The position numbers and the translations under genes are program-made. A stretch of DNA of 61,642 nt from the NCBI GenBank assembly GCA_028290405.1, contig JAQGJX010000083.1, positions 1-61,642 on the forward strand. The letters are read 5' to 3'. Below the pieces are notes generated by a model. It had not been told where the DNA came from and did not search any database. It worked only from the letters and a program-made list of their open reading frames with translations. Position 1 is the first letter of the stretch, and every line of letters begins with the position of its first letter. Source of the stretch: Hyphomicrobiales bacterium. GTDB lineage: Bacteria; Pseudomonadota; Alphaproteobacteria; Rhizobiales; Beijerinckiaceae. This document shows positions 1,828 to 47,845 of the stretch, one piece after another.

Positions 1828-3077
1828 GCGTCGTGTGTGTCGTCGGCCTTGGATACATCGGTCTTCCTGTCGCTTCGATGCTGGCGAGCCGGGGCCATGA
1901 AGTCGTCGGGTACGACGTGAGCGAACGCGCCGTATCCAGCATCAACCAGGGACGGGCCCACTTCTTTGAGCCGGACCTCGACATGCTGCTGAAAGCCGCC
2001 GTCCAGACGGGCCGGCTGCGCGCGCAGAACGAACCTGTGGAAGCTGATTATTACGTCATCGCCGTGCCCACCCCCTTTCGGGATGGACACAAGCCGGACC
2101 TCTCCTATATCGACGCCGCCACAGCCGCGATCGCGCCCTGCCTGAAGGCCGGATCGACCGTGGTGCTGGAGTCGACCTCGCCCGTCGGGGCGACGGAGCG
2201 CATGACGAGGCAGCTTGCCAGCCTGCGCCCGGACTTGAACTTCCCGCGCTACAAGGAGAGCCGGCCGGACACCAACGTCGCCGTCGCGCACTGCCCCGAG
2301 CGCATTCTGCCCGGCCAGATGATGCGCGAACTCATCACCAATGATCGCATCATTGGCGGCATGACCCGCGAATGCGCGGAGGCGGCCGCCAAGCTCTATG
2401 GCTCTTTCGTCACCGCTGACGCGTTTCGAACGGACTGCCGCACAGCCGAATTCGTCAAGCTGATCGAAAACTCGTTCCGCGACGTCAACATCGCGTTCGC
2501 CAATGAACTCTCGGTCATTTGCGAGAAGCTGGGCATCGACGTCTGGTCGGCCATCGACCTCGCCAACAGGCATCCCCGGGTGAATATCCTTCAGCCGGGA
2601 CCGGGTGTGGGCGGGCATTGCATCGCCGTCGATCCCTGGTTCATCGTCGACAGCGCCCCCGAGGAGGCGCGCATGATCCGCATGGCTCGCGAGGTCAACG
2701 AGGCCAAGCCCCACTGGGTCGCGGACCGCGTGGTGCATCATGCCGAGCGCTTCAAGAGCCCTGTGGTTGGTTGCTACGGACTTGCGTACAAGCCGGACGT
2801 CGAAGACCTGCGCGAAAGTCCCTCGCTGCAAATCGTGCGCTGGCTTGCGTCCCACAAGGACCTTTCGCTGGTGGTGTGCGAACCCATGATCGAGCGCTTG
2901 CCGGACGATCTACGGGAAGCGGGAAACGTGAAGCTCGCCTCCATGGACGAGACGCGCGAGCAGTCGGACATCGTCGCGTTCCTGGTGGCGCATCGGGCTT
3001 TCCGGGCGTTTCATCGCAACCAGTTCCTGAACAAGATCGTCGTGGACGCCGCAGGGCTGTTGTCGCAGCCTAGTTAG
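1824..3077 (+). CDS. wecC: UDP-N-acetyl-D-mannosamine dehydrogenase
   Basis: NAD-dependent four-electron oxidation of UDP-ManNAc to UDP-ManNAcA. The N-terminus is a Rossmann fold (VVGLGYIGLPVA, residues 6-17). The middle has CPERILPG (157-164), and the catalytic cysteine is C266 in GPGVGGHCIAVD, all hallmarks of the UDP-glucose/UDP-ManNAc dehydrogenase family. The 417-residue length is normal. WecB directly upstream with a 4-base overlap makes ManNAc the best substrate assignment over glucose or GalNAc. Its last 8 bases overlap the end of the convergently transcribed ctaG (3070-3077), so the two operons share their 3' ends. Confidence 0.92.
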   Translation: MSVVCVVGLGYIGLPVASMLASRGHEVVGYDVSERAVSSINQGRAHFFEPDLDMLLKAAVQTGRLRAQNEPVEADYYVIAVPTPFRDGHKPDLSYIDAATAAIAPCLKAGSTVVLESTSPVGATERMTRQLASLRPDLNFPRYKESRPDTNVAVAHCPERILPGQMMRELITNDRIIGGMTRECAEAAAKLYGSFVTADAFRTDCRTAEFVKLIENSFRDVNIAFANELSVICEKLGIDVWSAIDLANRHPRVNILQPGPGVGGHCIAVDPWFIVDSAPEEARMIRMAREVNEAKPHWVADRVVHHAERFKSPVVGCYGLAYKPDVEDLRESPSLQIVRWLASHKDLSLVVCEPMIERLPDDLREAGNVKLASMDETREQSDIVAFLVAHRAFRAFHRNQFLNKIVVDAAGLLSQPS

Positions 3078-3981
3078 GCGTGGCCCAGAGCGCGCCGGGC
3101 GGATGGCGGCTTGAGCGCGCAATCCACACCCCGCACAGGGCGAGGGCAGCAATTGCGTAGACCATGCCGCCCGGCACCCACATGATGAGCCCGGCGAGCT
3201 GCTGGTCCTCAAGCGGCGACAAGCCCCATGCGAGCGCCTCTCGCGTCTGCACGGGATAGAGCGGGCGCCGGGTCACGGACAAAAGGACGCCCAGAAATCC
3301 CGTGTGCAGCGATGTGACGAACAGATAAAAGACCGCTGCGCCAAAAGCGCGCTCTCGTCCCGGACCGCGCAAGAGCGCCCACCAGAACACGAGCGCGCTG
3401 GCGAAGAAGCTCACATGCTCGAGCCAGTGCAGGCGCGGCGAGGCGAGCGCGGCGTCGTAGAGGGCAGGCGCATGCCACAGCCAGATGGTGAGTCCATGCA
3501 CGAGCGTCGCGACGAGCGGCGTCGTGATCCACGCCCACATGGCGGCCGCCGCGCGGCTGCGCGCCACATGTCCCCAGCCGCGGCGCCAACTTGGCGGAGC
3601 GCCCCATAACGCGGCGCCGAAGGGGCGCGCGACGACGAGCAGCGGCGCGGCGAGCGTCATCAGGATCTCATGTTCGATCATGTGCGCCATAAACAGCCGC
3701 TCGCCCAGCCAGTGCAGCGGAGCCACGAGGGCGCCGAACAGCAGGAGCCACGCCAGCGCGAAGCACCCGACTTGCCACATGCGAACGCCGCGTCCCACGC
3801 CCGCACGCCGCCATAGCCGCCCCACGCCGAGAGCATAGATCGTCAGCGAGAGGACGAGCGGCGCCACAATGAGGGGGTCCCAGGTCCACGTCGAGGCAAG
3901 CTCCGTCCAGTGCACATGACCCGCGTGCGCCAACGCCGGGCCGCAAAGAAGACAGGCGCTCAAAAGCAGCGCCGCTCTCAT
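3070..3981 (-). CDS. ctaG: Cytochrome c oxidase assembly factor, caa3_CtaG family
   Basis: Polytopic membrane protein of 303 residues with a cleavable-looking N-terminal segment (LLLSACLLCGPALAHA), followed by several hydrophobic helices with conserved histidines (APLHWLGERLFMAHMIEHEILM, read as two pieces around residue 95; LHWLEHVSFF near residue 190). This is the caa3_CtaG family, associated with copper insertion or assembly of caa3-type oxidases; it is not the CtaG/Cox11 family that shares the name. It is the last gene of the operon that starts at 11013 and overlaps the preceding small membrane gene by ATGA (3978-3981). Its position with the oxidase genes fits a dedicated assembly role. 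Confidence 0.88.
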   Translation of the reverse strand: MRAALLLSACLLCGPALAHAGHVHWTELASTWTWDPLIVAPLVLSLTIYALGVGRLWRRAGVGRGVRMWQVGCFALAWLLLFGALVAPLHWLGERLFMAHMIEHEILMTLAAPLLVVARPFGAALWGAPPSWRRGWGHVARSRAAAAMWAWITTPLVATLVHGLTIWLWHAPALYDAALASPRLHWLEHVSFFASALVFWWALLRGPGRERAFGAAVFYLFVTSLHTGFLGVLLSVTRRPLYPVQTREALAWGLSPLEDQQLAGLIMWVPGGMVYAIAALALCGVWIARSSRHPPGALWATPN

Positions 3982-4325
3982 CGCTCGCAGCCTTCAAGGA
4001 AGAACGCCGCGGTGCCCTGGACGACGATCACGAGCGTGAACAGCAGCGCCACAAGCACGCTGAGCATCGCGAGGAACTGATGCGGGCGGCCGCCCGCCTG
4101 AGGATCCTGCGAGGCTGACCCGGAGCTCGCATAGGCGCGCCATGAAAGCCACGCGCCTGCAAGGCCGATGAGGGCGGACGCCAGCGTGACCGGGTGAATG
4201 AGCTGCGCCTTGTTCGCGCACACCCATGGCACGAGCGCGTACTTCGTCTGCAGGCTGACGAACCACGCCAAGGGTCCGGCGAATACGCCGGCCGATGAAA
4301 GTCCGCTTCGGTAGAACGCCGCCAT
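3978..4325 (-). CDS. Small membrane protein of the caa3 oxidase operon, unknown function
   Basis: A 115-residue protein with three predicted transmembrane stretches (about residues 12-34, 45-65 and 85-110). I do not recognise a named family. It lies 7 bases after the subunit III gene and overlaps ctaG by 4 bases, so it is co-translated with oxidase parts. A role as a small accessory subunit (a subunit IV analogue) or assembly partner is a guess from position and topology only. Confidence 0.7.
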   Translation of the reverse strand: MAAFYRSGLSSAGVFAGPLAWFVSLQTKYALVPWVCANKAQLIHPVTLASALIGLAGAWLSWRAYASSGSASQDPQAGGRPHQFLAMLSVLVALLFTLVIVVQGTAAFFLEGCER

Positions 4326-4332
4326 GGGACCC

Positions 4333-4932
4333 TCATAGCCTCGTCGTCCAGTAGAGAATGAAATAGATCGGCAGCCAGGAGGCGACCACGAAATACCAGT
4401 AGAAGGCGTTGTCGGTCACGTCGCTGAAACGCTTGCCATGCGCGTGCCGCGTGAACATCAGGGCGGTGAGGACGATTGTGTCGATCACGTCCGTCGCAAG
4501 ATGGGTCGTATGGAGCCCCAGCAACAGCCATACGAAGGAGCCGTAGGCGTTGGCGTCCCATTTGACGTGCAGGGTGGCGAACTCGGCCGCCCGAAGGGCG
4601 AGCAGACCAAGCCCGATTGCGCTCATCACGAGCAGATGCAATTGCACCGCCGGAAGATTGTGCTCTTCCGCACGCGCCTTGGCGCGCTGGTTCGGCCACA
4701 GGCTCACGAGCATGAGAAGGGTGATGAGGCCAGACCACAGGAGACCAGGCGGGGCGGCGCTCAGCGGCCATTCCGGATTGAGCCACGCAAGATAAAAGTA
4801 CGCCGCGGCGGCGATCGCGAATCCCGTCCCCTCGATGAGGATGAACGCCATGGTGCCCCACGCCATCGTCATCCGTGTTCCGAAGCCGTAGGTGGGGAGT
4901 TCTGAAACGTCGTGCAGGATGGACGTTTTCAT
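4333..4932 (-). CDS. ctaE: Cytochrome c oxidase subunit III
   Basis: A 199-residue membrane protein of the haem-copper oxidase subunit III family. It has five or so hydrophobic segments, including MAWGTMAFILIEGTGFA near the N-terminus and a histidine-bearing LLLGLHTTHLATDVID in the second half, a typical subunit III signature. The frame is open well upstream, but the ATG at 4932 is chosen because it overlaps the stop of subunit I (ATGA, 4929-4932) and the residues before it do not resemble the family. Subunit III is short here compared with the 260-290 residues of mitochondrial-type enzymes, as is usual for five-helix caa3 forms. Confidence 0.9.
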   Translation of the reverse strand: MKTSILHDVSELPTYGFGTRMTMAWGTMAFILIEGTGFAIAAAAYFYLAWLNPEWPLSAAPPGLLWSGLITLLMLVSLWPNQRAKARAEEHNLPAVQLHLLVMSAIGLGLLALRAAEFATLHVKWDANAYGSFVWLLLGLHTTHLATDVIDTIVLTALMFTRHAHGKRFSDVTDNAFYWYFVVASWLPIYFILYWTTRL

Positions 4933-6848
4933 TCCTCGTCCTCCGGCGCGCCCTTTGGCCAAAACCAGCAGATCAGCGCGACGCCGACCGGCGCTGCGCC
5001 CCACACCACGCCCCAGGGGGTAAAGATGGAGGCGATGAAGGTCGCCCCCACCGCAATCGCTGAAACGAAGGGCCAGATGGACGGGGCGGGCGATGTTTCG
5101 CGCAGGTCCGGGCGGGCTTCCGTGACGCTCGTCACGAGCACCTCGCGATGATCGACCGCCAGGCCCGCCACGACCGTCAACGCGTCGCGCTGCGCCCAGA
5201 GCGGCTCGCGATGGGTGACGAAGGGAATGCGGTCGAAGTTCTGCGGCGAGGGCGGAGACGAGGTCGCCCATTCAAGCGTGCCGGCGTCCCAGGGATTGTC
5301 GCCGGCCGGCGCGCCGGCGCGCAGGCTCGTGACGGCGTTCCACAGGAACAGCACGAAACTCAGGAAGAAGAACGCGGCGCCGATCGTGACGAGGAGATTG
5401 AGCGGCCCCCACCCCATCTCCGCCTGGTAGGCGTAGACCCGGCGCGGCATGCCCTGCAGCCCCAATATGTGCATGGGAAAGAAGGCGACGTTGAAGCTCA
5501 CGAACGCGAGCCAGAAATGCCATGTCCCCAGGCGTTCGCTCATCATGCGGCCGGTCAGCTTCGGGAACCAGTAGTAGACGGCGCCCAGCAGCGGGAACAC
5601 GGCGCCGCCGATCAACACGTAATGAAAGTGCGCCACAACGAAATACGTATCGTGCACCTGAGTGTCGATGGGCACCGAGGCGACCATGACGCCCGTGAGC
5701 CCCCCGATTACGAAGATGACGATGAAGCCCAGCGCGAACAGAAGCGGGGTTCGAAACACCGGCTTGCCGTCCCACAAGGTGGCGATCCAGCAGAAGATCT
5801 GGACCCCGTTGGGAATGGCGATCAACATGCTCGCGCCGGTGAAGAAGCTTGCGCCAAGCTGGGGAACGCCTGCGGTGAACATGTGGTGCACCCACAGGCC
5901 GAAGGACAGGAAGCCCACGGAGATGACCGACAGGACCATCGGCAGATAGCCGAACATCGGCCGGCGGCTGAACGTGACGACGATGGACGAGACGAAGCCC
6001 GTGGCGGGCAGAAAGATGATGTAGACCTCCGGGTGCCCGAAGAACCAGAACATATGCTGCCAGAGAAGCGCGTCGCCGCCTTCCGCAGGGTTGAAGAAAT
6101 GGGTTTCCACCAACCTGTCGAGAATGAGCATGGTGGAGGCCAGCATCACGGCGGGCATCGCGAAGATCACCACGAAGGCGGTGACGAGCTGGGTCCATAC
6201 CGACAGCGGCAGGCGGTCCAGCGTCATCCCCGGGGCGCGCTGCTTGAATACGGTGGTGATGATTTCCACCGACACCGCGAGCGCCGCGACTTCCGTGAAG
6301 GTGATCATCTGCGCCCAGAAGTCGACGCGCTTGCCCGGGCTGTTCTCCGGACCTGACAGCGGCACGTAGGCGAACCAGCCGGTGTCCGGGCCTATGTTGA
6401 GCGCGAACGCCACCCACAGCATCAGGCCGCCGAAAACATAGACGTAATAGCTGAAGGCGTTGAGGCGCGGGAAGGCGATGTTTCGCGTGCCCACCATGAG
6501 CGGCACGAGGTACACGGCGAACGCCTCCATCACCGGCACGGCGAAGAGGAACATCATGGTCGTGCCGTGCATGGTGAAGAGCTGGTTGTATAGATCCGGC
6601 CCCATTAGCGCCGACTCGGGTCGCGCCAGTTGCAGGCGCATCGCCACCGCCGACAGGCCGGCGAGAAAAAGAAACAGGAACGCGGTGACGATGTAGCGCC
6701 GCCCGATGATCTTGTGGTCCACCGTGGACAGCGCCGCCAGCAGCCCCCGGCCAGATCCCCATGTGCGCGCCAGCCGCGCGTGTAGCTCCGCCGCGTCCAG
6801 CTGCGTGTCGCGCACGTCCTTGGCCGGCCGCACCGACGCCTCGCTCAT
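4929..6848 (-). CDS. ctaD: Cytochrome c oxidase subunit I (A1-type catalytic subunit)
   Basis: The haem a / haem a3-CuB catalytic subunit. A CuB histidine and the cross-linked Tyr lie in WFFGHPEVYIIF; the Glu of this motif is the D-channel gate of type A1 oxidases. Haem ligands are visible in MHGTTMMFLF and in VVAHFHYVL. At 639 residues it is about 100 longer than the usual 530-560. The extra C-terminal part carries at least one more helix (SIWPFVSAIAVGATFI, then GVVWGAAPVGVALICWFW). Such extensions occur in caa3 enzymes and partly mimic subunit III helices. Both ends overlap neighbours by ATGA, which implies strict stoichiometric translation with subunits II and III. Confidence 0.95.
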   Translation of the reverse strand: MSEASVRPAKDVRDTQLDAAELHARLARTWGSGRGLLAALSTVDHKIIGRRYIVTAFLFLFLAGLSAVAMRLQLARPESALMGPDLYNQLFTMHGTTMMFLFAVPVMEAFAVYLVPLMVGTRNIAFPRLNAFSYYVYVFGGLMLWVAFALNIGPDTGWFAYVPLSGPENSPGKRVDFWAQMITFTEVAALAVSVEIITTVFKQRAPGMTLDRLPLSVWTQLVTAFVVIFAMPAVMLASTMLILDRLVETHFFNPAEGGDALLWQHMFWFFGHPEVYIIFLPATGFVSSIVVTFSRRPMFGYLPMVLSVISVGFLSFGLWVHHMFTAGVPQLGASFFTGASMLIAIPNGVQIFCWIATLWDGKPVFRTPLLFALGFIVIFVIGGLTGVMVASVPIDTQVHDTYFVVAHFHYVLIGGAVFPLLGAVYYWFPKLTGRMMSERLGTWHFWLAFVSFNVAFFPMHILGLQGMPRRVYAYQAEMGWGPLNLLVTIGAAFFFLSFVLFLWNAVTSLRAGAPAGDNPWDAGTLEWATSSPPSPQNFDRIPFVTHREPLWAQRDALTVVAGLAVDHREVLVTSVTEARPDLRETSPAPSIWPFVSAIAVGATFIASIFTPWGVVWGAAPVGVALICWFWPKGAPEDEE

Positions 6849-7852
6849 TTAAGGCCCTCCAGGTAGGCCGCCAGGGGCTGGACCTGATCCGGGCGCAGCG
6901 GCGTCGCCGGCATGTGGACGCCGGGCTTCACGCCTTGTGGATCGACGATCCAGGCGGCGAGCGCCTCTGCGCTCATCCGCAAGGCGCCCGCCGCAATGTA
7001 CTGGCGGCCGCCGACATGGGTGAGGTCGGGGCCGACGCGCCCGCCCGCTCCGGCGCCGCGCACCGTGTGGCAGGTCACGCATGTGCTCGACAGGAACACG
7101 CCCTCGCCCTGCTTGCGCAACTCGTCGTCAGGCGGCGCGCGTGCAACGATCTGCTGGTTGCGCCAGGCGTCGAAGTCCTGTTGCGGCTGCGCGACGACCA
7201 AAAAGCCCATGTGGGCGTGTTGCCAGCCGCAGAACTCCGCGCACTGGCCGCGATAGACGCCGGCCCTGTCCGCCTGGATCGTCAGCAGGTTTTGGCGACC
7301 CGGAATGAGATCCTGCTTGCCCGCGAGGCTCGGGACCCACAGCGAATGAATGACGTCCGACGCTTCAAGCTTCAGCAGCACCGGCTGGTTGACCGGAACA
7401 TGAATCTCATTGGCGGTGCTGAACGTGCGCTGCGGGTCAGGGTCTTCATAAACCGCGTCCCACCACCATTGGTGGCCGGTGATGCGGATGGTGAGGCGCG
7501 CCTCCTGCGGGCCGAACAATCGCCTCTGGCTGGCGTAGCTGGCGATCGTGAGTCCGATCAGCGTTACGCCAGTCAGCGCCACAAGGGTCGACACCACGAT
7601 CGTAAGGCGTCGCTCGCGCCCGCCTTGGATGGATAAGGGATCCGGCCTGAGCCCCCGGCGACGCCACAAGGCCCATGCGAGCGCCAGAACCACGAGCGCC
7701 CACACAAGGGCGCATACGGCGGTGAAGAACCAGAAGAGATCATGGATGGCGCTCGCGTGCGGGCCCTTTGGGTCCAGCGAGGACTGCCACCCCTCGCAGC
7801 CTGCCAGGGCAAGCGAGGCGGCCACCACAACGGCGTGACGCGGCGACCTCAT
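6845..7852 (-). CDS. ctaC: Cytochrome c oxidase subunit II with fused cytochrome c domain (caa3 type), lipoprotein
   Basis: The ATG at 7852 is chosen: it overlaps the preceding stop (ATGA) and starts a lipoprotein signal with lipobox LALAGC (Cys19). Two transmembrane helices follow (about 38-63 and 82-105). The CuA domain contains GHQWWW (127-132), H169, and the cluster CAEFCGWQHAHM (C204, E206, C208, H212, M215). A C-terminal haem c domain has CVTCH (258-262) and a likely distal Met at 314 (HMPATPL). It takes electrons from a periplasmic cytochrome and passes them through haem c and CuA to subunit I. At 335 residues, the fused haem defines the complex as caa3. Confidence 0.95.
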   Translation of the reverse strand: MRSPRHAVVVAASLALAGCEGWQSSLDPKGPHASAIHDLFWFFTAVCALVWALVVLALAWALWRRRGLRPDPLSIQGGRERRLTIVVSTLVALTGVTLIGLTIASYASQRRLFGPQEARLTIRITGHQWWWDAVYEDPDPQRTFSTANEIHVPVNQPVLLKLEASDVIHSLWVPSLAGKQDLIPGRQNLLTIQADRAGVYRGQCAEFCGWQHAHMGFLVVAQPQQDFDAWRNQQIVARAPPDDELRKQGEGVFLSSTCVTCHTVRGAGAGGRVGPDLTHVGGRQYIAAGALRMSAEALAAWIVDPQGVKPGVHMPATPLRPDQVQPLAAYLEGLK

Positions 7853-8412
7853 TGCGGCGCGAGCCCGGAGGGCGGCGTCGAGCCGCCGGGAATGGGCGTG
7901 ACGTAAGGCTGCCGGTTCTCGGCGGGCCTTGGATGCATGTCGTCGTTGCGTCCGGGGGCGACGTCCTGGGGGATGGCCCGGCCCATGGAGCGCACGTACG
8001 CGGCGAGCTCCCAGATCTGATCGTCCGGGATGCGGTCGCGAAACGACGGCATGCCGTTCGGCCGCCCCTCCTTGATCGTGCGAACGATGTTTTCCATGGA
8101 CCCGCCATAGATCCAAGTATCGTCCATCAACGGCGGGCCCGAACCGCCGCCGCCGTTTGAATGGCAGCCGTTGCAGTTGAACCAGGTATAGTATTTCTTG
8201 CCTTGGCTGACGTGATAGGCGTTGTTCTCGAACTCTTTCGCGCGCGCGCTGCTCTGCGCGGCCGGCTGCCCGCCGCCCGGGGAGATGCTCGACATGGTGA
8301 TCTTGTCTTCGTCGCTCGCCACCACGGGATCGCGGCGGAATTCGCGCCGTTCACGCTCGCACGCGCCCACAAGAAGGCTGGCGCACAGCAGCATGAGGGC
8401 TCCGCGGGTCAT
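7849..8412 (-). CDS. Lipoprotein cytochrome c, probable electron carrier between the dehydrogenase and the caa3 oxidase
   Basis: A 187-residue c-type cytochrome with one haem site, CNGCH at residues 80-84, and a likely distal Met at 121 (GMPSF). The N-terminus (MTRGALMLLCASLLVGAC) ends in a lipobox with Cys18, so it is probably tethered to a membrane on the periplasmic side. The start at 8412 overlaps the stop of the upstream substrate-binding-like gene by ATGA, and its own stop overlaps ctaC by ATGA. Its place between a PQQ dehydrogenase pair and an oxidase suggests a XoxG/MxaG-like carrier; I cannot show homology to those. The long linker with AAQSS before the haem domain could act as a tether. 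Confidence 0.88.
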   Translation of the reverse strand: MTRGALMLLCASLLVGACERERREFRRDPVVASDEDKITMSSISPGGGQPAAQSSARAKEFENNAYHVSQGKKYYTWFNCNGCHSNGGGGSGPPLMDDTWIYGGSMENIVRTIKEGRPNGMPSFRDRIPDDQIWELAAYVRSMGRAIPQDVAPGRNDDMHPRPAENRQPYVTPIPGGSTPPSGLAPQ

Positions 8413-9215
8413 CTTGCCTCCACGTCCGCACGCGGCACGTTGTAGGCCGCCAGAACAGCGTCGATCTCTCGCCGCCACGTCGCCAAAGCCGCTTCGACTT
8501 CTTGCCGCAGAGGCTCGTCCGCCTTGCGCACGGCCATGGAGATGCTCCACGTCATCGGCAGATCCGACGCCTTTTGTGTTCCCCCGAAGGGCGTGACCCG
8601 CAACGGCGGCTTTTGCAACGCCGCGAAATAGCCCGCCAGCGGCCCCCATACGACAGCGACGTCCACCTCTCCATTCGCTACCGCGTCGACGATTCGCGCT
8701 GGCGGGTTGGGCTGGCGATAGTCCCCATAGAGCGTATATCCGCGGATGTTGTTGACGACGCCGCGTTGCGTCAGCGCATGGGCGGGGGGCGTGTTCCAGC
8801 CGTCGTCGCCGATCAATTGCACGCCTACGGTCGCTTTGTGCAGCACGGGATCGTCGAAGGAGGAGACGGACGGGCCGTCGGCGCGCGTCACGAAAACGTA
8901 GGCGGAACGGTAGTAGGGCGTCGTAACTCCCACGCCCTCCATGTTGCTTGGCAGGCCGGGCACGAGATCGCACGCGCCCGCCTTCAGCGTTTCGCGCAGG
9001 AACCCGCGACGCTGGGCGCGCCACTCATAGGTCACCTCCGCGCGAAGCGCCTGGGCCACAAGGTCGACGATCCTGTTCTCAAACCCCTCCCGGGCTTCGT
9101 TGGAGAAGGGCAGGTTGTTCGGGTCAGCGCAGACGCGCAGCTCGCGCGCTTGCGCCGAAAGGGAGGCGAGCATTGCGCAGCCGAGCGCCGCCAGCCTAAG
9201 GGAGCTTGAACACAT
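8409..9215 (-). CDS. Quinoprotein dehydrogenase-associated periplasmic substrate-binding-like protein (MoxJ/XoxJ-like)
   Basis: A 268-residue protein with a signal peptide (LRLAALGCAMLASLSAQA) followed by ELRVCADPNNLPFSNE, the signature opening of the ABC-type amino-acid-binding fold found beside PQQ alcohol dehydrogenases. MoxJ/XoxJ proteins of this family lack transporter partners and help the dehydrogenase mature or become active. No permease or ATPase gene is nearby, which supports that role. Its first 20 bases overlap the end of the dehydrogenase gene, and its stop overlaps the cytochrome c start. Whether it binds PQQ, a lanthanide or the apo-enzyme cannot be read from sequence. Confidence 0.85.
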   Translation of the reverse strand: MCSSSLRLAALGCAMLASLSAQARELRVCADPNNLPFSNEAREGFENRIVDLVAQALRAEVTYEWRAQRRGFLRETLKAGACDLVPGLPSNMEGVGVTTPYYRSAYVFVTRADGPSVSSFDDPVLHKATVGVQLIGDDGWNTPPAHALTQRGVVNNIRGYTLYGDYRQPNPPARIVDAVANGEVDVAVVWGPLAGYFAALQKPPLRVTPFGGTQKASDLPMTWSISMAVRKADEPLRQEVEAALATWRREIDAVLAAYNVPRADVEAR

Positions 9216-11013
9216 AGAGCGTTCCTCCCTTAGTGGTGACGTTCTTCAGGTCCCGCATCGCGTTGACGAAACCCAGCGCGGCGCTTCCGTCGCGCGGATC
9301 TAGATCGCCCGAGACGATGGCCCCCGCCCAGCCGCCGACCCCGGAGAGAACCGCGACATATTGCTTGCCGTCGGGCCCCCGATAGGTGGTCGGTTGACCG
9401 ATGATTCCAGAGGACGTCTTGAACTGCCACAGGGCTTCGCCGGTGCGCGCGTGCACGGCTTTGAACCAGCCTTCCATGTTGCCGTAGAAAACGAGGTCGC
9501 CGCCGGTCGCCATGGCGCCGCTCCAAAGCGGGAAGCGCTCGTTGATGGTCCAGAGTTCCTTTCCTGCGCGGATGTCCCACGCGGAGAACTCCCCCATGTG
9601 GCCGCCTGGCCCGGGGAACATGCGCACCTCCGCGCCCACGTAGGGCGTGCCGGCGATGTAATTAGGTTCTGTGGTCTCCCAATCCATGCACATGTTCATG
9701 TGCGGAATGTAGAGAACGCCGGTCCTGTGCGAAAACGCGGAGGGATTCCAGTCTTTGGAGCCGGGCGCGGTCGGGCAGATGTTGCGCACCACACGGTTCT
9801 GGATCGGCTCCTTGTCGGGATTGTATTGGAGACGGCCGGTCTTGAGGTCGACGCCCGTCACGGCCGTGAGGGCATGGAACGGCTTGGCTGACAGCACTTC
9901 GCCCGTGGTGCGGTCTAAGACGTAGACGAAGCCCGTCCGGCCCGGGTGCACAAGCACCTTGCGCATTTGGCCGTCCCATTCCATGTCGAGCAGCACCTGC
10001 TCGTTGATGGTGTCCCAGTCATGTATGTCGTGCTGCGCGGTCTGGTAGTACCAGCGCGCGTCGCCGGTGTCGGGATCGCGTGCGAAGATCCCTGTGGTCC
10101 ACTTGTTGTCCCCGGGCCTCTGGTTGGCGTTCCAGGGGCCGGGATTGCCGGTGCCGTGATAAAGTAGGTTGAGGTCAGGATCATACGACATCCATCCCCA
10201 AACCGTGCCGCCGCCCTGCTCCCATGCGTTCGGCGGCCATGTGGAGACGCCAAGGTCCTGGCCTTTGTCGCCGTCATAGAACGGCTTGAACGACGGGCCT
10301 ATCTTGACGTCCCTGTCGGGCCCGGTGCTGTAGGCTTTCCAGACGCTCTTGCCTGATGCGGCGTCAAGCGCCTGCACCCAGCCGCGCACGCCGTATTCGC
10401 CCCCCGAATTACCGACGACCACCTTGTCCTTGGCGACCAGGGGCGCCATCGTCATGGTCTCGCCCTTGTTGATTTCGCCGACCTTCGTCTTCCACATCTC
10501 CTCGCCGGTGTCGGCGTTCACCGCGACCACGTGCGCATCGAGCGTGGTGAAGAAGATTCGCCCGTTCGCATATGTGGGGCCTCGGTTCACCACGTCGCAG
10601 CACGCCACGCCTTGCGCGGCGGCGTCGGGCTTGGGGTTGTAACGCCACTTCAGCGGCGCGCCCGGCTGCGTGAGATCGAGCGCATAAAGGATGTTCGGGT
10701 AGGGCGACAGCACGTACATCGTGCTCCCGACCACCAGCGGCGCGGATTCATGGCCCTTGTTCACGCCGGTGGAGAATGTGAACGCGACCTGGAGATTCTT
10801 TACGTTGCTGACGTTGATCTGGTCGAGGCCGCTATAACGGGTGCTGGCGAAATTCTTGCCGGGCATGGTCCATTGCCCGTCCTCGGCGGGCGCCGCGGAG
10901 GCCGGCGGGGCTGCAATATTGTGCGCCGAGGCGCCCTGCGCCCACGCCAAAGCCCAAGGCGATCCTGCGTAAATGGAAGCTGTGATAATCGCTGCGCCGA
11001 GGCTTCTTTTCAC
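9196..11013 (-). CDS. PQQ-dependent periplasmic alcohol dehydrogenase with lanthanide-type active site (XoxF/ExaF-like)
   Basis: A 605-residue eight-bladed propeller quinoprotein of the methanol/ethanol dehydrogenase family. Start is GTG at 11013 with AGGAGA six bases upstream. A signal peptide precedes the mature chain (cleavage probably after WALAWA). Visible active-site features are vicinal cysteines C138-C139 (ACCDVVNRG), E206 (SGGEYGVRG), N290 (GTGNPGPWN), catalytic D332 and a second D334 (IHDWDTINE). In calcium enzymes of the MxaF type the second position is usually Ala or Ser; Asp there is the known lanthanide-coordinating residue. It oxidises primary alcohols (substrate not determinable) and passes electrons to a cytochrome c. 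First gene of the operon; no PQQ biosynthesis genes are in the window. Confidence 0.93.
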   Translation of the reverse strand: MKRSLGAAIITASIYAGSPWALAWAQGASAHNIAAPPASAAPAEDGQWTMPGKNFASTRYSGLDQINVSNVKNLQVAFTFSTGVNKGHESAPLVVGSTMYVLSPYPNILYALDLTQPGAPLKWRYNPKPDAAAQGVACCDVVNRGPTYANGRIFFTTLDAHVVAVNADTGEEMWKTKVGEINKGETMTMAPLVAKDKVVVGNSGGEYGVRGWVQALDAASGKSVWKAYSTGPDRDVKIGPSFKPFYDGDKGQDLGVSTWPPNAWEQGGGTVWGWMSYDPDLNLLYHGTGNPGPWNANQRPGDNKWTTGIFARDPDTGDARWYYQTAQHDIHDWDTINEQVLLDMEWDGQMRKVLVHPGRTGFVYVLDRTTGEVLSAKPFHALTAVTGVDLKTGRLQYNPDKEPIQNRVVRNICPTAPGSKDWNPSAFSHRTGVLYIPHMNMCMDWETTEPNYIAGTPYVGAEVRMFPGPGGHMGEFSAWDIRAGKELWTINERFPLWSGAMATGGDLVFYGNMEGWFKAVHARTGEALWQFKTSSGIIGQPTTYRGPDGKQYVAVLSGVGGWAGAIVSGDLDPRDGSAALGFVNAMRDLKNVTTKGGTLYVFKLP

Positions 11014-38718: not shown

Positions 38719-38857
38719 AGGAGTTGCGCGCGCGGGCGCCGCGGGACTAGGCGCCCGACGCCTTTACGCCAAGCTTTCGTCCCCCTTGCGGCCGCCTGCT
38801 GCGCGCGCCCCCTGCGCCCGGGATCAAAATGGCCGATTCCCCCGGCGGAAGCCGCCA

Positions 38858-38873
38858 TGGCACGCCCCTTGCT
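38858..38873 (+). promoter_or_regulatory. Sigma-54 (RpoN) promoter for the urea transporter
   Basis: TGGCAC-GCCCC-TTGCT gives GG and GC elements at -24/-12 with the correct spacing and an almost perfect match to consensus TGGCAC-N5-TTGCW. Transcription would start near 38884, about 30 bases before the urtA ATG. This indicates nitrogen control (NtrC-type activator) of urea uptake. Confidence 0.85.
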
Positions 38874-38915
38874 CAATGGGTGGCCAGGCGATTTTGCCGA
38901 ACAGGGGTGGAATTC

Positions 38916-40202
38916 ATGAGCATCAAGATTGGGCGGCGGGGCGTTCTCGCCGGCATGGCGGGCGCGGCCATGATGATGTCCGGCGCGGCCGCTTACGCGC
39001 AGGAGACCATCAAGGTCGGCATCCTGCATTCGCTCTCGGGCACGATGGCGATCAGCGAGACGACCCTGAAGGACGTCATGCTGATGCTCATCGACGAGCA
39101 GAACAAGAAGGGCGGCGTTCTCGGCAAGAAGCTTGAGGCCGTCGTGGTCGATCCGGCCTCCAACTGGCCGCTGTTCGCCGAAAAGGCGCGCGAGCTCATC
39201 ACGCAGCAGAAGGTCGCGGCGGTGTTCGGCTGCTGGACCTCGGTCAGCCGCAAGTCCGTGCTGCCCGTGTTCAAGGAGCTCAACAACATCCTCTTCTACC
39301 CGGTCCAGTACGAGGGCGAGGAGAGCGAGCGCAATGTGTTCTACACCGGCGCCGCGCCGAACCAGCAAGCCATCCCGGCCGTCGACTACCTGATGAGCAA
39401 GGACGGTGGCGAAGTGAAGCGCTGGGTGCTGGCCGGCACCGATTACGTCTATCCGCGCACGACCAACAAGGTGCTTGAGGCCTACCTCAAGGGCAAGGGC
39501 GTCGCCGCCGAAGACATCATGATCAACTACACGCCCTTCGGCCATTCCGACTGGCAGACCATCGTCTCCGACGTGAAGAAGTTCGGCTCGGCCGGCAAGA
39601 AGACCGCCGTGGTGTCCACCATCAACGGCGACGCGAACGTGCCCTTCTACAAGGAACTCGGCAACCAGGGCGTGAAGGCCACCGACATTCCCGTCGTGGC
39701 GTTCTCGGTCGGCGAAGAAGAGCTCGCGGGCATCGACACGGGCAGTCTCGTGGGCCATCTGGCCGCCTGGAACTACTTCCAGTCCGTCAAGAACCCCGCC
39801 AATGCGGAATTCATCGCCAAGTGGCAGGCCTTCACCAAGAACCCGAAGCGCGTGACCAACGATCCGATGGAAGCGCACGTCGTGGGCTTCAACATGTGGA
39901 TCAAGGCCATCGAGAAGGCCGGCACGACCGATCCCGACAAGGTCATCGACGCCCTCCCTGGCATCGAAGCCGCCAACCTCACGGGCGGCGTGTCCAAGAT
40001 GCTGCCGAACCATCACATCACGAAGCCCGTCATGATCGGCGAAATCCGCGCCGACGGCCAGTTCGACGTGGTGTGGCAGACCAAAGACCTCGTCCCCGGC
40101 GACGCATGGTCCGACTTCCTCGACGGCTCGAAGGACCTCGAAGCCGACTGGGTTGGCAAGAAGTGCGGCAACTTCAACACCAAGACCGGCAAGTGCGGCT
40201 AA
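38916..40202 (+). CDS. urtA: Urea ABC transporter substrate-binding protein
   Basis: Periplasmic urea-binding protein of 428 residues. The N-terminus KIGRRGVLAGMAGAAMMMSGAAAYA is a twin-arginine-style signal (RRGVLA), read as two pieces here, so export may be by Tat. The core begins IKVGILHSLSGTMAISE and contains VFGCWTSVSRKSVLPVF, YPVQYEGEE and GSLVGHLAAWNYF, typical of UrtA. ATG 38916 follows AGGGGTGG. Its own sigma-54 promoter sits upstream and a terminator-like hairpin follows, a common way to make excess binding protein over the membrane subunits. Confidence 0.95.
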   Translation: MSIKIGRRGVLAGMAGAAMMMSGAAAYAQETIKVGILHSLSGTMAISETTLKDVMLMLIDEQNKKGGVLGKKLEAVVVDPASNWPLFAEKARELITQQKVAAVFGCWTSVSRKSVLPVFKELNNILFYPVQYEGEESERNVFYTGAAPNQQAIPAVDYLMSKDGGEVKRWVLAGTDYVYPRTTNKVLEAYLKGKGVAAEDIMINYTPFGHSDWQTIVSDVKKFGSAGKKTAVVSTINGDANVPFYKELGNQGVKATDIPVVAFSVGEEELAGIDTGSLVGHLAAWNYFQSVKNPANAEFIAKWQAFTKNPKRVTNDPMEAHVVGFNMWIKAIEKAGTTDPDKVIDALPGIEAANLTGGVSKMLPNHHITKPVMIGEIRADGQFDVVWQTKDLVPGDAWSDFLDGSKDLEADWVGKKCGNFNTKTGKCG

Positions 40203-40264
40203 AGCCCGCGACCTGTCAGGCGCAGTCCCGGACCTTGGTGCGCGCCTGACCTGAGACACGAACG

Positions 40265-40299
40265 AATGGCCGCCGTCCGCCCCTGTCGGCGGCCATTTT
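40265..40299 (+). terminator. Terminator-like hairpin between urtA and urtB
   Basis: AATGGCCGCCG (40265-40275) pairs with CGGCGGCCATT (40287-40297) and TTT runs to 40299; 11-bp stem, 11-base loop. A further stem (GTCAGGCGC at 40216-40224 with 40243-40251) precedes it. It can reduce transcription into urtB relative to urtA. Confidence 0.75.
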
Positions 40300-40337
40300 C
40301 CAGCAAAGACAGTATGCGCAGCCGCGCGGAGGATAGC

Positions 40338-41936
40338 GTGCCCCGGTTTTCACTTCTCTGCGCCCTCCTGCTTGCGTGCCTGACCATCCTCGCCCCGCAG
40401 GCCCGCGCGGACGTCTCCGCGCCTCTGGCGCGCCTGGCGCTGGACGAGTTCGCCGAAACCGCGAAGGCGGTGGACGAGATCGCCGCGTCCGGCGACGCGC
40501 AGGCCCAGGCCATCCTTGAAGCGCTGGGCTCCGCCCGGCTGTTCGTCGATCCCGCCACTAAGGCCGTCTACCGGCGCGCCGCCAACGGGGATGCGTTCGC
40601 CGCCGCGACAGGCGCCCGCGTTCCTGCTCCTCCGGCGGGCCTTCAGACCGTGCGGGTCAACAACCGCCTGCGCGGCGCGATCCAGAACGCCGTCGGGGCG
40701 CTCACGCTCATGTCTCCCGATCCCGCGCGCCGCCGCGCCGCCGCCGAATCCGTGTTTCGCTCGCGCGACGCCAGCGTGCTCGCGCCCCTCGAGGCGGCCC
40801 TGAAGGCGGAGAAGGACCCGGGCGTCGCGCAGCTTTTCGCGCAGGCGCGCGCCGCCGTCCTCGTCGCCGCCCCCGACAGCTCGAACGAGGTCCGCATCGA
40901 CGCCATCGGCGTGCTGCGCGCCCGCGCCGACATCAACGCCATCGCGGCGTTGCGCTCGCTGCCCGCCAAGGCCGACGCGAGCGCGAAGTCGCTGGCGGAC
41001 GACGCCGTCGCTGCCATCGAGCAGCGCCTGCGCCTGCTGAGCCATGCGCAGAACGTCTGGTACGGCCTGTCGCTCGGCTCCGTTCTGCTGCTCGCCGCCA
41101 TCGGGCTAGCGATCACGTTCGGCGTCATGGGCGTCATCAACATGGCCCACGGCGAGATGGTGATGCTGGGCGCCTACGCGACCTTCATGGTGCAGGAGGC
41201 GTTCCGGGCCTATGCGCCCGCATGGTTCGATTTCTCGCTGCCCGTGGCGCTGCCGCTCGCGTTCCTGTTCACGGGCCTTGTGGGCGTCGCGATCGAGCGC
41301 GGGATCATCCGGTTCCTCTACGGCCGGCCGCTGGAGACGTTGCTCGCCACCTGGGGCGTCAGCCTCATCCTCCAGCAGGCCGTGCGCACCGTGTTCGGCC
41401 CCACCAACCGCGAGGTCGGCGCGCCGTCCTACATGGCCGGCGCGTTCGATTTCTTCGGGCTCTCGGTCACCTGGGGCCGCATGTGGATCATCGTGTTCAC
41501 GCTGGTGGTGTTCGTCAGCCTTCTGCTGGCCCTCAAGCACACGTCCCTTGGCCTGCACATGCGCGCCGTCACCCAGAACCGCCGCATGGCGGCCGCCATG
41601 GGCATCCGCACGCCCTGGGTGGACGCCATGACGTTCGGGCTCGGCTCCGGCCTTGCGGGCGTCGCCGGGGTGGCGCTGTCGCAGATCGACAACGTGTCGC
41701 CCAACCTGGGGCAGAGCTACATCATCGACAGCTTCATGGTCGTGGTGTTCGGCGGCGTCGGCAACCTGTGGGGGGCGCTCGTGTCGGCCTTCGCGCTAGG
41801 GGTCGCCAACAAGTTCCTCGAGCCGCTGGCGGGCGCCGTGCTGGCGAAGATCCTCATCCTCGTGCTGCTGATCCTCTTCATCCAGAAAAGGCCGCGCGGC
41901 CTGTTCGCCCTCAAGGGCCGGGCGGTGGAAGCATGA
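40338..41936 (+). CDS. urtB: Urea ABC transporter permease
   Basis: A 532-residue permease of the branched-chain amino acid/urea class. A signal-like start (PRFSLLCALLLACLTILAPQARA) leads a ~200-residue periplasmic region with repeated alpha-helical units (unique to UrtB), and the C-terminal ~300 residues form membrane helices with GLSLGSVLLLAAIGLAITFGVMGVINMAHGE, read in two pieces. The GTG at 40338 is preferred because it has GGAGGA at six bases; an ATG at 40266 sits inside the terminator hairpin and one at 40314 lacks a ribosome site. Its stop overlaps urtC by ATGA. Confidence 0.92.
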   Translation: MPRFSLLCALLLACLTILAPQARADVSAPLARLALDEFAETAKAVDEIAASGDAQAQAILEALGSARLFVDPATKAVYRRAANGDAFAAATGARVPAPPAGLQTVRVNNRLRGAIQNAVGALTLMSPDPARRRAAAESVFRSRDASVLAPLEAALKAEKDPGVAQLFAQARAAVLVAAPDSSNEVRIDAIGVLRARADINAIAALRSLPAKADASAKSLADDAVAAIEQRLRLLSHAQNVWYGLSLGSVLLLAAIGLAITFGVMGVINMAHGEMVMLGAYATFMVQEAFRAYAPAWFDFSLPVALPLAFLFTGLVGVAIERGIIRFLYGRPLETLLATWGVSLILQQAVRTVFGPTNREVGAPSYMAGAFDFFGLSVTWGRMWIIVFTLVVFVSLLLALKHTSLGLHMRAVTQNRRMAAAMGIRTPWVDAMTFGLGSGLAGVAGVALSQIDNVSPNLGQSYIIDSFMVVVFGGVGNLWGALVSAFALGVANKFLEPLAGAVLAKILILVLLILFIQKRPRGLFALKGRAVEA

Positions 41937-43081
41937 TCATCCGTCATCTCTTTGCGCGCTTCGACCGCGCGGGCCTTCTCTTCATGCTCATCGTCGGCGC
42001 CGCCGCGGTGCTCGTGCCGCTGTCCAACCTGCTGCTGCCGACCGCCTCGCCCTTCCACGTGCCCACCCACGTGGTGTCGCTCGTCGGCAAGTACCTGTGC
42101 TACGCGATCCTTGCGTTGTCGCTGGACCTCGTGTGGGGCTATTGCGGCATTCTTTCGCTGGGCCACGGGGCTTTCTTTGCGCTGGGCGGCTACGCGATGG
42201 GCATGTACCTCATGCGCCAGATCGGCCCGCGCGGGGTCTACGCCAACCCGCTGCTGCCGGACTTCATGGTGTTCCTGAACTGGAAGGAACTGCCGTGGTT
42301 CTGGTACGGGTTCGACATGTTCCCCTTTGCGGCGGCCATGGTGTTCCTGGCGCCCGGCGTGCTGGCGTTCCTGTTCGGCTGGCTGACGTTCCGCTCCCGC
42401 GTCACGGGCGTTTACCTCTCCATCATCACGCAGGCGATGACGTATGCGCTGCTGCTGGCGTTCTTCCGCAACGACATGGGCTTTGGCGGCAACAACGGCC
42501 TGACGGACTTCAAGGACATCCTGGGCTTCAACATCCAGGCGCAGGGCACGCGCCTCGCGCTGTTCTCCGCCACCGCCGTCGCGCTGGTGCTGTGCTACGT
42601 GCTGGCGCGCTGGATGGTGACGACCGCCTTCGGCAAGGTGCTGATCGCGGTGCGCGACGCCGAAAGCCGCTCGCGCTTCCTGGGCTACCGGGTCGAGCAC
42701 TACAAGCTCGTGGCCTTCACGGTCTCGGCCGCCATGGCGGGCCTTGCGGGCGCGCTCTACGTGCCGCAGGTCGGCATCATCAACCCGTCCGAGTTCTCGC
42801 CGGCCAATTCCATCGAGGCCGTCATCTGGGTGGCGGTGGGCGGGCGCGGCACGCTGGTGGGCGCGGCCCTTGGGGCCGTGCTGGTGAACTTTCTCAAGAC
42901 GTGGTTCACCACCGGCATGCTGGCGCCCTACTGGCTGTTCCTGCTGGGCGCGTTGTTCATCGGAGTCACGCTGGCGCTCCCCAAGGGCATCGTGGGCGCC
43001 GTTCATGAATGGAGCGACAAGCGCCGCGCGCGCCGCAAGGCCGCCGCGCCTGCGCCCCAGCCGGCGGAGCAAGGCACATGA
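41933..43081 (+). CDS. urtC: Urea ABC transporter permease
   Basis: A 382-residue inner-membrane permease with about ten helices and the family segments LSLDLVWGYCGILSLGHGAFFALGGY (read in pieces), LTFRSRVTGVYLSIITQAMT and GGRGTLVGAALGAVLVNF. Pairs with UrtB to form the channel. Starts by ATGA overlap with urtB; the frame is open upstream but those residues are a shadow of urtB. Stop overlaps urtD (ATGA). Confidence 0.95.
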   Translation: MIIRHLFARFDRAGLLFMLIVGAAAVLVPLSNLLLPTASPFHVPTHVVSLVGKYLCYAILALSLDLVWGYCGILSLGHGAFFALGGYAMGMYLMRQIGPRGVYANPLLPDFMVFLNWKELPWFWYGFDMFPFAAAMVFLAPGVLAFLFGWLTFRSRVTGVYLSIITQAMTYALLLAFFRNDMGFGGNNGLTDFKDILGFNIQAQGTRLALFSATAVALVLCYVLARWMVTTAFGKVLIAVRDAESRSRFLGYRVEHYKLVAFTVSAAMAGLAGALYVPQVGIINPSEFSPANSIEAVIWVAVGGRGTLVGAALGAVLVNFLKTWFTTGMLAPYWLFLLGALFIGVTLALPKGIVGAVHEWSDKRRARRKAAAPAPQPAEQGT

Positions 43082-43890
43082 TCGCGCAAACCCTCACGAC
43101 TAACGACGCCAGCGCCTTCGTGGACAATCCTCACGCCGCGCCCGAAGTCACCAAAGCGCTGCTGTATCTCGACGGCGTCAGCGTCAGCTTCGACGGCTAC
43201 CGGGCCATCCGCAACCTGTCGCTCTATGTGGCGGCGGGCGAAATGCGCGCCATCATCGGCCCCAACGGGGCCGGCAAGACCACCATGATGGACATCGTGA
43301 CGGGCAAGACGCGGCCTGACGAAGGCGAAGTGTTGTTCGACCACGGCAAGCACGACCTGACGAAGCTGGACGAAACCGCCATCGCCAATCTGGGCATCGG
43401 CCGCAAGTTCCAGAAGCCGACCGTGTTCGAGATGCACACGGTGGCCGACAACATCCTGCTGGCCATGAAGGGCCCGCGGGGCCCCTTCGCGTCGCTGGTC
43501 GGCTGGCGCAACCGGGTCCAGCGCGAGAAGATCGACAGCGTGCTGGAGACCGCAGGCCTCATCGAGCACCGAGGCAGGCTGGCGGGCGAAATCTCCCACG
43601 GCCAGAAGCAATGGCTGGAGATCGGCATGCTGCTGGCGCAGGATCCCGCCATCCTGCTGGTGGACGAACCCGTGGCGGGCATGACGGACGCCGAGACCGA
43701 GCAGACCGCGGAACTGCTGCGCGACATCAATCGCCAGCACACGGTTATCGTCGTGGAGCACGACATGGCGTTCGTGCGGGCGCTCGACTGCAAGGTGACG
43801 TGCCTGCACGAGGGCGCAGTGCTCTCGGAAGGCACGCTCGACAAGGTCGCGGGCGACGAGCGCGTGATCGAAGTTTATCTCGGGCGCTAG
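43078..43890 (+). CDS. urtD: Urea ABC transporter ATP-binding protein UrtD
   Basis: A 270-residue nucleotide-binding subunit. Walker A GPNGAGKTT, signature SHGQKQWLEIGMLL (the SHGQKQ variant typical of UrtD) and Walker B ILLVDEPVAGM are clear, with HDMAFVRAL as the switch His. Works with UrtE to energise urea import. The N-terminal ~35 residues before the ABC domain are a short extension. Start ATG 43078 overlaps urtC. Confidence 0.95.
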   Translation: MIAQTLTTNDASAFVDNPHAAPEVTKALLYLDGVSVSFDGYRAIRNLSLYVAAGEMRAIIGPNGAGKTTMMDIVTGKTRPDEGEVLFDHGKHDLTKLDETAIANLGIGRKFQKPTVFEMHTVADNILLAMKGPRGPFASLVGWRNRVQREKIDSVLETAGLIEHRGRLAGEISHGQKQWLEIGMLLAQDPAILLVDEPVAGMTDAETEQTAELLRDINRQHTVIVVEHDMAFVRALDCKVTCLHEGAVLSEGTLDKVAGDERVIEVYLGR

Positions 43891-43911
43891 AGCCCGCTGG
43901 AGTCAACGCAG

Positions 43912-45442: not shown

Positions 45443-45466
45443 CAACATTCGACACGAGGACGCCCG

Positions 45467-45769: not shown

Positions 45770-45777
45770 GGCGCGCC

Positions 45778-46083: not shown

Positions 46084-46121
46084 CCCGTTTCAGAAATTCA
46101 CCGATCCATGGGGCTTCAACC

Positions 46122-47834: not shown

Positions 47835-47845
47835 ACGTGCATTTG

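Follow-up and report, generated by a model that had tools for sequence, protein, structure and literature searches.

On the minus strand at positions 3070–11013 of the window (the whole 61,642-nucleotide stretch of DNA considered here), eight genes form an operon that is a known type of module with an unusual oxidase. The explanation we favor, and consider probable, is that these genes encode an XoxF3 respiratory module, which would carry electrons from methanol to O2 through an oxidase with a rebuilt proton inlet. All eight genes lie where a preliminary description of this DNA had placed them, and the identities it had proposed (lanthanide-type PQQ dehydrogenase, MoxJ-like protein, cytochrome, oxidase, and CtaG) were confirmed by family profiles and cofactor motifs:

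9196–11013, minus strand: putative xoxF3, PQQ methanol dehydrogenase, 605 aa, GTG start (TIGR03075, 643.7 bits, cut-off 480)
8409–9215, minus strand: xoxJ, MoxJ-like protein with a substrate-binding fold, 268 aa (TIGR03871 MoxJ_2, 288.7 bits, cut-off 212)
7849–8412, minus strand: xoxG-like cytochrome c, 187 aa, one CxxCH (Cytochrome_CBB3 and Cytochrom_C matches)
6845–7852, minus strand: coxII, 335 aa, with a C-terminal haem c (CoxB TIGR02866, 172.5 bits, cut-off 148; COX2; Cytochrom_C)
4929–6848, minus strand: coxI, 639 aa (CtaD_CoxA TIGR02891, 721.7 bits, cut-off 671)
4333–4932, minus strand: coxIII, short form, 199 aa (position, conservation, and matches to subunit III models that all fall below cut-off)
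3978–4325, minus strand: small membrane protein, 115 aa (place between coxIII and ctaG; alignment of 20)
3070–3981, minus strand: ctaG, oxidase copper-site assembly protein, 303 aa (Pfam Caa3_CtaG, 191 bits, cut-off 27.7)

The genes are joined mostly by 4-base overlaps, as previously described: these occur at five of the seven junctions, the other two being a 20-base overlap between xoxF and xoxJ and a 7-base gap between coxIII and the small-protein gene. Within the operon, promoter-like sites numbered 0 against 1.2 expected by chance, and terminator-like sites, counted on both strands, 6 against 6.2; the cluster may be read as a single transcript. The cytochrome c has a haem site, CNGCH, at residue 80 and, as read by eye, a lipobox (LVGAC). 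The coxII product combines the CuA motif CAEFCGWQHAHM with a fused haem c domain (CVTCH), as in caa3-type oxidases, with a start that by eye resembles a lipobox, while CoxI continues for ~90 residues beyond its core profile match.

The dehydrogenase carries the metal-site Asp pair within HDWD, and its leader-like start, read by eye, predicts a periplasmic location. In a tree of 76 rows, built after setting aside ten loci and with L223_4426 on a long branch, the metal-site Glu and Asn were kept throughout (76/76), and the lanthanide Asp pair was found in 69 of the 71 non-reference rows, including this protein (DD), versus D/A in the MxaF reference. Seventy of the 76 rows, this protein among them, formed a clade marked 99* apart from the five references, which cover XoxF1, XoxF2, XoxF5, and MxaF, in what is a quick tree that lacks an XoxF4 reference and a depositor-labelled XoxF3. 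We infer the XoxF3 label from gene content and from comparison with Methylocella tundrae T4, which is reported to have one XoxF3, in an xoxFGJ cluster, and whose plasmid p1 bears a 68.7%-identical copy adjoining a substrate-binding protein and a cytochrome c. Among solved structures, the top sequence match was XoxF2 PDB 4mae (636.6 bits), which we take to be the methanol dehydrogenase of Methylacidiphilum; the two proteins share the metal-site Asp pair but sit on separate tree branches. Lanthanide-dependent methanol activity is predicted for this protein. In Methylosinus trichosporium, an XoxF3 and the adjoining XoxJ are reported to go up with cerium (PMC12482762).

The preliminary description knew of no system with this gene set, a view that did not survive comparison with the literature, since both an XoxF3-cox cluster (PMC10875860, 2024) and COX operons with PQQ dehydrogenases (PMC4013037, 2014) have been published. 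XoxF3-cox clusters, which have been described in Acidobacteria and, in part, in Gemmatimonadetes and Verrucomicrobia, share XoxF3, XoxJ, XoxG/CytC, CoxI–III, a ~110-aa protein, and CtaG with this operon, in which each component of the type was found (xoxF, xoxJ, cytochrome c, coxI–III, the ~110-aa protein, and ctaG). They differ in that some genomes have NRAMP, TonB receptor, or MscS neighbors, none of which is among the eight genes here, and in that the full set was published mainly from Acidobacteria, with no mention of proton pathways in the excerpts of that paper (PMC10875860). COX operons of type a-II, often found with PQQ dehydrogenases, resemble this operon in being alphaproteobacterial, in their frequent MxaF-related PQQ dehydrogenase, and in their long COX1; their features include a COX1–COX4 fusion and a 5-helix COX3, and the text of PMC4013037 contains none of the proton-channel terms looked for. 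The operon adds an alphaproteobacterial example to a cluster type already in the literature.

Recurrence across genomes had been proposed as a check on whether the cluster is a functional module, and the cluster does recur well beyond one genome and in several phyla. All eight genes, ordered as here, were found in 20 of the 52 named loci encoding a dehydrogenase relative, which excludes chance; these loci include an Acidobacteria (L020) and a Verrucomicrobia MAG (L027), and the same order was seen on the conjugative plasmid pSMED03. More broadly, xoxF and coxI occurred together in 28 of the 52 loci; some of the remaining 24 end at contig edges, and no oxidase genes were seen in six loci with ~10 kb of flanking sequence in both directions (L022, L038, L043, L045, L047, and L052). 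XoxF without an adjoining oxidase is common, being found in L022 and in 19 loci (L034–L052, many of them short contigs, mainly from Gemmatimonadetes along with other phyla) whose XoxF is ~50% identical. Judged by the dehydrogenase, the closest named relatives are Microvirga.

The unusual character of the oxidase, which the preliminary description did not mention, lies in CoxI. All haem and copper ligand motifs examined are retained, as is the GHPEVY motif with Glu278 and Tyr280. A1-type cytochrome c oxidases such as PDB 7rh6, presumably the Mycobacterium smegmatis oxidase, have in common with it XGHPEVY with Glu and Tyr and the CuA, CuB, and haem His motifs, but differ at D124 and K354, which are replaced here by Asn (residue 123) and Gln (residue 350), respectively. 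At the D-channel positions listed in PMC3084760 (Asp124, Asn199, Asn113, Asn131, Tyr35, Ser134, Ser193, and Glu278), this CoxI has N, E, V, and N at the first four and, by alignment, Ala189 at Ser193, while keeping Glu278. At the K-channel positions from the same source (Lys354, Thr351, Ser291, and Tyr280) it has Q, N, S, and Y, so that neither channel is present in its canonical form. Glu is found at residues 108 and 186, both of them Gly in canonical oxidases. In the aa3 CoxI that the host genome encodes on contig 1, D124, E278, and K354 are all intact.

To place these substitutions, a motif table of 96 CoxI rows was compiled, comprising ORFs above 480 bits and 350 aligned residues from 124 scanned loci, plus this CoxI (L157 was omitted as a duplicate of L027, and L055, at a contig end, fell below threshold); flanks were taken for the better-scoring CoxI hits of the longer survey lists (18, 3, 7, 28, 2, and 10 regions). 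Tyr280 was present in all 96 rows. In the 53 rows linked to xoxF, i.e., with an XoxF hit >400 bits within the same locus (up to ~22 kb), many of them Microvirga near-copies, K354 was never intact, and D124 and E278 were both intact in three (L025, L149, and L212). A clade comparison used 91 rows, with 13 loci omitted as near-identical Microvirga, cut, or duplicate (11 of these had motif-table rows) and six plasmid loci added. E186 was found in all 53 rows of this oxidase's own group (a set other than the 53 linked rows) and in 15/15 COX1–3 fusions, versus 0/16 and 0/7 in the two remaining groups. We considered whether the proton-pathway losses are an XoxF-specific trait and rejected this in part: K354 loss is shared by COX1–3 fusions in whose vicinity no xoxF was seen, and that of D124 is not XoxF-specific because it tracks an oxidase clade that includes FdhF-linked and unlinked members. 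Nor is K354 loss in family A new per se, as repeated K-channel losses are discussed for an archaeal oxidase tree (PMC8239418). Within open-licence PMC literature, we found no paper joining XoxF-linked oxidases with proton-pathway loss.

The CoxI and XoxF trees together indicate that XoxF3 has paired with two oxidase clades that lie far apart and have changed in different ways, the second having lost Glu278 and Lys354, and that it has been re-paired with them several times: the E278W partner type, whose 15 rows include the long-branch L223, requires seven changes on the XoxF tree, and starred branches force at least six of these. The oxidase type is in turn not exclusive to XoxF, a second point that the preliminary description lacked, since on plasmids an FdhF/YdeP oxidoreductase adjoins it in 20 of the 40 best hits and XoxF in 15 of the 40. 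A related cytochrome c gene lies upstream of the oxidase in both settings. By eye, no export signal was seen in the FdhF/YdeP proteins of the sister operons, so one would not expect them to pass electrons directly to a cytochrome in the periplasm; no paper on an FdhF/YdeP–oxidase link was found in open-licence PMC literature. Clade members with neither xoxF nor FdhF were also observed (L150, L151, L203, L208, L209, L220, L096, and L222).

A dedicated chain from alcohol to O2, as first suggested for this operon, stands as the best reading of the sequence. XoxF3, with PQQ and a lanthanide, would oxidize methanol or another small alcohol in the periplasm, assisted by XoxJ. Electrons would pass to the membrane-anchored cytochrome c, next to subunit II with its haem c and CuA, and from there to the haem–copper centre of subunit I, where O2 would be reduced. 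CtaG would load the oxidase with copper, and the small membrane protein probably assists assembly or belongs to the structure. Such a chain would bypass quinone and bc1, so that energy could be conserved at the oxidase only. The proton inlet may be rebuilt around the new helix glutamates E108 and E186, in which case proton uptake and pumping would be unlike those of model A-type oxidases. Against this, protons can enter model oxidases with an altered subunit III via surface groups other than the D-pathway Asp (PMC8361435), so that its loss need not stop uptake. A wider version of this reading is possible, although we hold it tentatively: a mobile oxidase–cytochrome cassette, having lost both canonical inlets and rebuilt its proton path on the new helix glutamates, would serve differing, probably one-carbon oxidations (XoxF3 or FdhF/YdeP), with the second clade lacking Glu278 and Lys354 recruited likewise. 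On this version, that a dehydrogenase of the same kind recruited that clade would point to selection, in this role, for a proton pump that is unusual or missing.

How far the oxidase conserves energy is the point on which the strongest competing explanation turns. The chain could be a weakly coupled or uncoupled sink, with protons arriving by another route, little or no pumping, and a role in removing alcohol or excess electrons more than in feeding growth. Model oxidases in which Asn replaces the Asp at the mouth of the D-pathway have impaired activity and blocked proton uptake (PMC8361435). Among the CoxI compared here, K354 is missing from all 53 linked proteins, and Fae gave no hit in the host genome. 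On the other side, the ligand motifs examined are kept, the new Glu residues are conserved in a way that suggests a rebuilt path, and the three linked CoxI named above retain D124 and E278. Overall, we regard an uncoupled sink as somewhat unlikely. Host metabolism counts against the favored module, as do the non-exclusive oxidase type and the XoxF that lack an adjoining oxidase: PqqD gave no hit in the host genome in a search that matched 3 of 14 controls, PqqE gave nothing over cut-off there or in the controls, and no control is a sure PQQ producer (the PqqC model matched no control genome, making that search uninformative). Given these results and the lack of a Fae hit, it is doubtful that this host grows on methanol or makes its own PQQ.

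A private chain is also not the only way to read the gene order, which might reflect shared regulation, i.e., co-expression under common conditions, with the cytochrome also feeding general oxidases and the oxidase serving several donors. The FdhF/YdeP genes adjoining the same oxidase type on many rhizobial plasmids, the related XoxF found without it, and the other oxidases of the host genome (five COX1-family hits in all) are consistent with this. The repeated re-pairing of XoxF3 with oxidases from two distant clades, and the related cytochrome c gene that stands ahead of the oxidase in either setting, speak against it, and we consider shared regulation unlikely. Least probable by far is a decayed oxidase, in which the substitutions would mark lost function and the operon would be a remnant. 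Its spread is indeed patchy, with a close CoxI in 10 of 249 genomes of the host's order (host genome counted) and no such CoxI in the 8 further genomes listed under the host's family, but the frames are open, the genes overlap tightly, and CoxI is conserved across phyla, Tyr280 without exception.

In the respiratory module that we favor, the oxidase looks like a natural double variant at sites where laboratory mutation impairs or blocks proton uptake, of a kind present in several phyla. Should it turn over, one must ask by what means an A-type oxidase can function when the D and K inlets are missing; should it pump little, the energy that XoxF3 bacteria gain from oxidizing methanol in soil would have to be budgeted differently.

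The 115-aa protein matched no profile family, and its model (pLDDT 74.5) had no significant structural match (best Foldseek E = 1.0), which lends no support to a vesicle-transport relationship of the kind that PMC10875860 describes for its own models. It occupies the same CoxIII–CtaG position as the ~110-aa protein of the XoxF3-cox clusters (PMC10875860), and has three long predicted helices, with Cys36 and Cys113 nearly invariant in an alignment of 20.

All eight minus-strand genes reported for the operon (3070-11013) in the preliminary description were found, and its statement that they mostly share 4-base overlaps held at five of the seven junctions, the other two being a 20-base overlap between xoxF and xoxJ and a gap of 7 bases between coxIII and the small-protein gene. 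Family searches backed the dehydrogenase, the MoxJ-like protein, the cytochrome, CoxII with its haem c, CoxI, and CtaG, and backed CoxIII through sub-cut-off matches only; the small protein between CoxIII and CtaG had no match in these searches. Upstream of xoxF, on the same strand, an aldo-keto reductase gene (family searches) ends 114 bases before it, with a short inverted repeat visible by eye past its stop. A scan for promoter- and terminator-like sites inside the operon gave a count not above chance.

A synteny check found that this gene order is not confined to one genome. A single search of named genomes, with the window dehydrogenase as query, yielded 52 loci, of which 28 carried xoxF and coxI together and 20 the complete eight-gene set in the same order (14 Microvirga, 2 Sinorhizobium, 2 Phyllobacterium, a Pyrinomonadaceae MAG at L020, and a Chthoniobacterales MAG at L027), with rearranged versions in Methylocaldum (L025) and Gemmatimonadetes (L033, L055). 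The 24 loci without coxI included 19 (L034-L052; mostly Gemmatimonadetes, plus Acidobacteria and Proteobacteria, many of them short) with a XoxF about 50% identical, and at L022, L038, L043, L045, L047, and L052 oxidase genes were absent from the roughly 10 kb seen on each side. The cluster has a patchy distribution: of the 249 genomes in the order, 10, counting the window's own, encode a close CoxI match at E <= 1e-200, and the eight other genomes listed for the family of the window's genome have none. The cluster is also carried by the conjugative plasmid pSMED03. The preliminary description knew of no described system with this gene set, and here it is superseded by print. The gene set is that of the XoxF3-cox cluster, reported for Acidobacteria and in part for Gemmatimonadetes and Verrucomicrobia (PMC10875860), and COX operon type a-II is stated in PMC4013037 to often include a PQQ dehydrogenase related to MxaF. 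Given such published related systems, the finding as given belongs to an already known kind.

The solved structure closest to the dehydrogenase is 4mae, a XoxF2 enzyme; a structure of a XoxF1 enzyme has reportedly been determined in one study. When 76 sequences, references for XoxF1, XoxF2, XoxF5, and MxaF among them, were placed on a quick tree, the window and 69 others formed a single starred clade separate from every reference. The lanthanide Asp pair was present in 69 of the 71 non-reference rows and the metal-ligand Glu and Asn in all 76, while the MxaF reference displayed the expected Ala at the second Asp place. Based on gene content and comparison with Methylocella tundrae T4, the enzyme is probably a XoxF3. 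Strain T4 is reported to encode XoxF1, XoxF3, and two XoxF5 (PMC11102522, relevant passage), and the XoxF on its plasmid p1, 68.7% identical to the window's and neighbored by a substrate-binding protein, a cytochrome c, CtaG, and cox genes in opposite orientation, is likely the XoxF3 of that report. In Methylosinus trichosporium OB3b, cerium is described as raising XoxF3 and the adjoining XoxJ (PMC12482762, relevant passage).

The window CoxI retains the GHPEVY motif, Tyr280, and those histidine motifs for CuB and haem that were inspected; it carries Asn at residue 123 (D124 in Paracoccus numbering, the D-pathway entrance) and Gln at residue 350 (K354, the K-pathway lysine), following the channel residue list in PMC3084760. 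Both altered motifs align ungapped with 7rh6, a solved oxidase in which Asp and Lys are present, as they are in 15/15 canonical alphaproteobacterial CoxI. In the same genome, D, E, and K are all present in the aa3 CoxI (contig 1), and E and K in a second CoxI, a cut copy on contig 142. According to PMC8361435, model oxidases with an Asp-to-Asn change at the D-pathway entrance are impaired in activity and blocked in proton uptake, and other surface groups can feed the pathway in oxidases with an altered subunit III. Repeated K-channel loss in family A was discussed earlier on an archaeal oxidase tree (PMC8239418, relevant passage), so that K loss by itself is neither new nor XoxF-specific.

Nearly every XoxF3 oxidase partner lacks canonical residues of both pathways. 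Among 96 CoxI related to the window's, 53 were linked to xoxF (XoxF match >400 bits in the same fetched locus), a set with many near-copies whose counts are thus not independent events: K354 was intact in none, and D124 and E278 were both intact in three (L025, L149, L212). At the D124 site, 33 rows had N, 15 had D, 3 had E, and one each had I and S, and E278 was replaced by W in 13. All three residues were intact in 7 of the 96, every one unlinked, and 21 of the 43 unlinked CoxI combined D, E, and Q, so that among unlinked CoxI the K is often lost while D and E are retained.

In a quick tree of 91 CoxI, the linked rows fell into two distant clades, except for L025, placed together with three unlinked rows just outside the window's clade. 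That clade (43 rows: 30 with xoxF, 7 with FdhF, 6 with neither) mostly displays D124N and K354Q; the second (17 rows, 14 xoxF-linked) displays E278W throughout and a changed K354. The minimum number of changes on this tree was five for D124 (scored as intact or not), two for E278, and one for K354. On the XoxF tree, dehydrogenases of the two oxidase clades are intermixed, and the E278W-type partner (15 rows, one being the long-branch L223) requires seven changes, at least six of them forced by starred branches; XoxF3 has thus switched oxidase partner several times. Separately, L215 (genome G414, contig 16) encodes two CoxI about 7 kb apart, one from each clade, with a single xoxF-xoxJ-cytochrome c set in the stretch seen.

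Simple decay seems a poor account of the residue losses. Grouped by sequence, the 96 CoxI comprise the window's group (53 rows, not the same 53 as the linked ones), COX1-3 fusions (15), others (5), E278W rows (16), and canonical rows (7). A glutamate at window position 186 (E186) was found in 53/53, 15/15, and 5/5 of the first three groups, and one at position 108 (E108) in 42/53, 15/15, and 5/5; both were absent from the E278W (0/16) and canonical (0/7) rows, and Gly occupies both positions in 15/15 canonical oxidases from Alphaproteobacteria. Since E186 and E108 sit a few residues ahead of the D-pathway Ser192/193 and Asn113 places, respectively, we read them as a putative rebuilt proton inlet. 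E186 is not restricted to oxidases linked to xoxF.

The oxidase cassette is common to XoxF and FdhF/YdeP settings. Among the best 40 plasmid matches of the window CoxI, several of which are near-copies, XoxF lay within 5 kb of CoxI in 15 and an FdhF/YdeP gene within 6 kb in 20, with neither among the rows listed for 5. Examples of the FdhF/YdeP setting include Mesorhizobium japonicum pMLb, Rhizobium leguminosarum pR132503, and Bradyrhizobium barranii pCC829_1, whose oxidoreductases exceed the TIGR01701 cut-off; an export signal, looked for by eye in the pMLb protein, was not seen, so direct electron transfer from it to a periplasmic cytochrome would be unexpected. These modules, from rhizobial plasmids and other genomes, consist of coxII-coxI, mostly plus cytochrome c, coxIII, or ctaG:

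L242, 6005-12897: oxidase module beside FdhF/YdeP, without xoxF
L243, 5996-12513: oxidase module beside FdhF/YdeP, without xoxF
L245, 8422-17818: oxidase module beside FdhF/YdeP, without xoxF
L204-L207: further oxidase modules beside FdhF/YdeP, without xoxF

In the proposed route, XoxF3 would oxidize methanol or another small alcohol, and electrons would pass via cytochrome c to the haem c and CuA of subunit II, then to subunit I and O2, skipping bc1. Searches of the window's genome (99.65% complete) found neither Fae nor PqqD, with 2/14 and 3/14 control genomes positive, respectively, and nothing above cut-off for PqqE. The host may thus be unable to grow on methanol and may depend on PQQ taken up from outside, and the reading that the chain supplies energy for growth is weaker for this strain as a result.

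Despite these PqqD and PqqE results, the genome encodes two PQQ dehydrogenases. The second, with a DYD metal motif (L090 8873-10573; contig 115, 18959-20497), lies near periplasmic-binding, beta-propeller, ABC-export, and TonB-receptor-like genes identified by eye, a cluster that resembles the ExaF/PedH type. Elsewhere in the window, urease and urease-accessory-like genes adjoin a branched-chain/urea-type ABC transporter set (38829-49853; ORF list, by eye), and a glycogen/trehalose-type cluster with branching enzyme and alpha-amylase-like genes occupies 53192-61565 on the minus strand (by eye).
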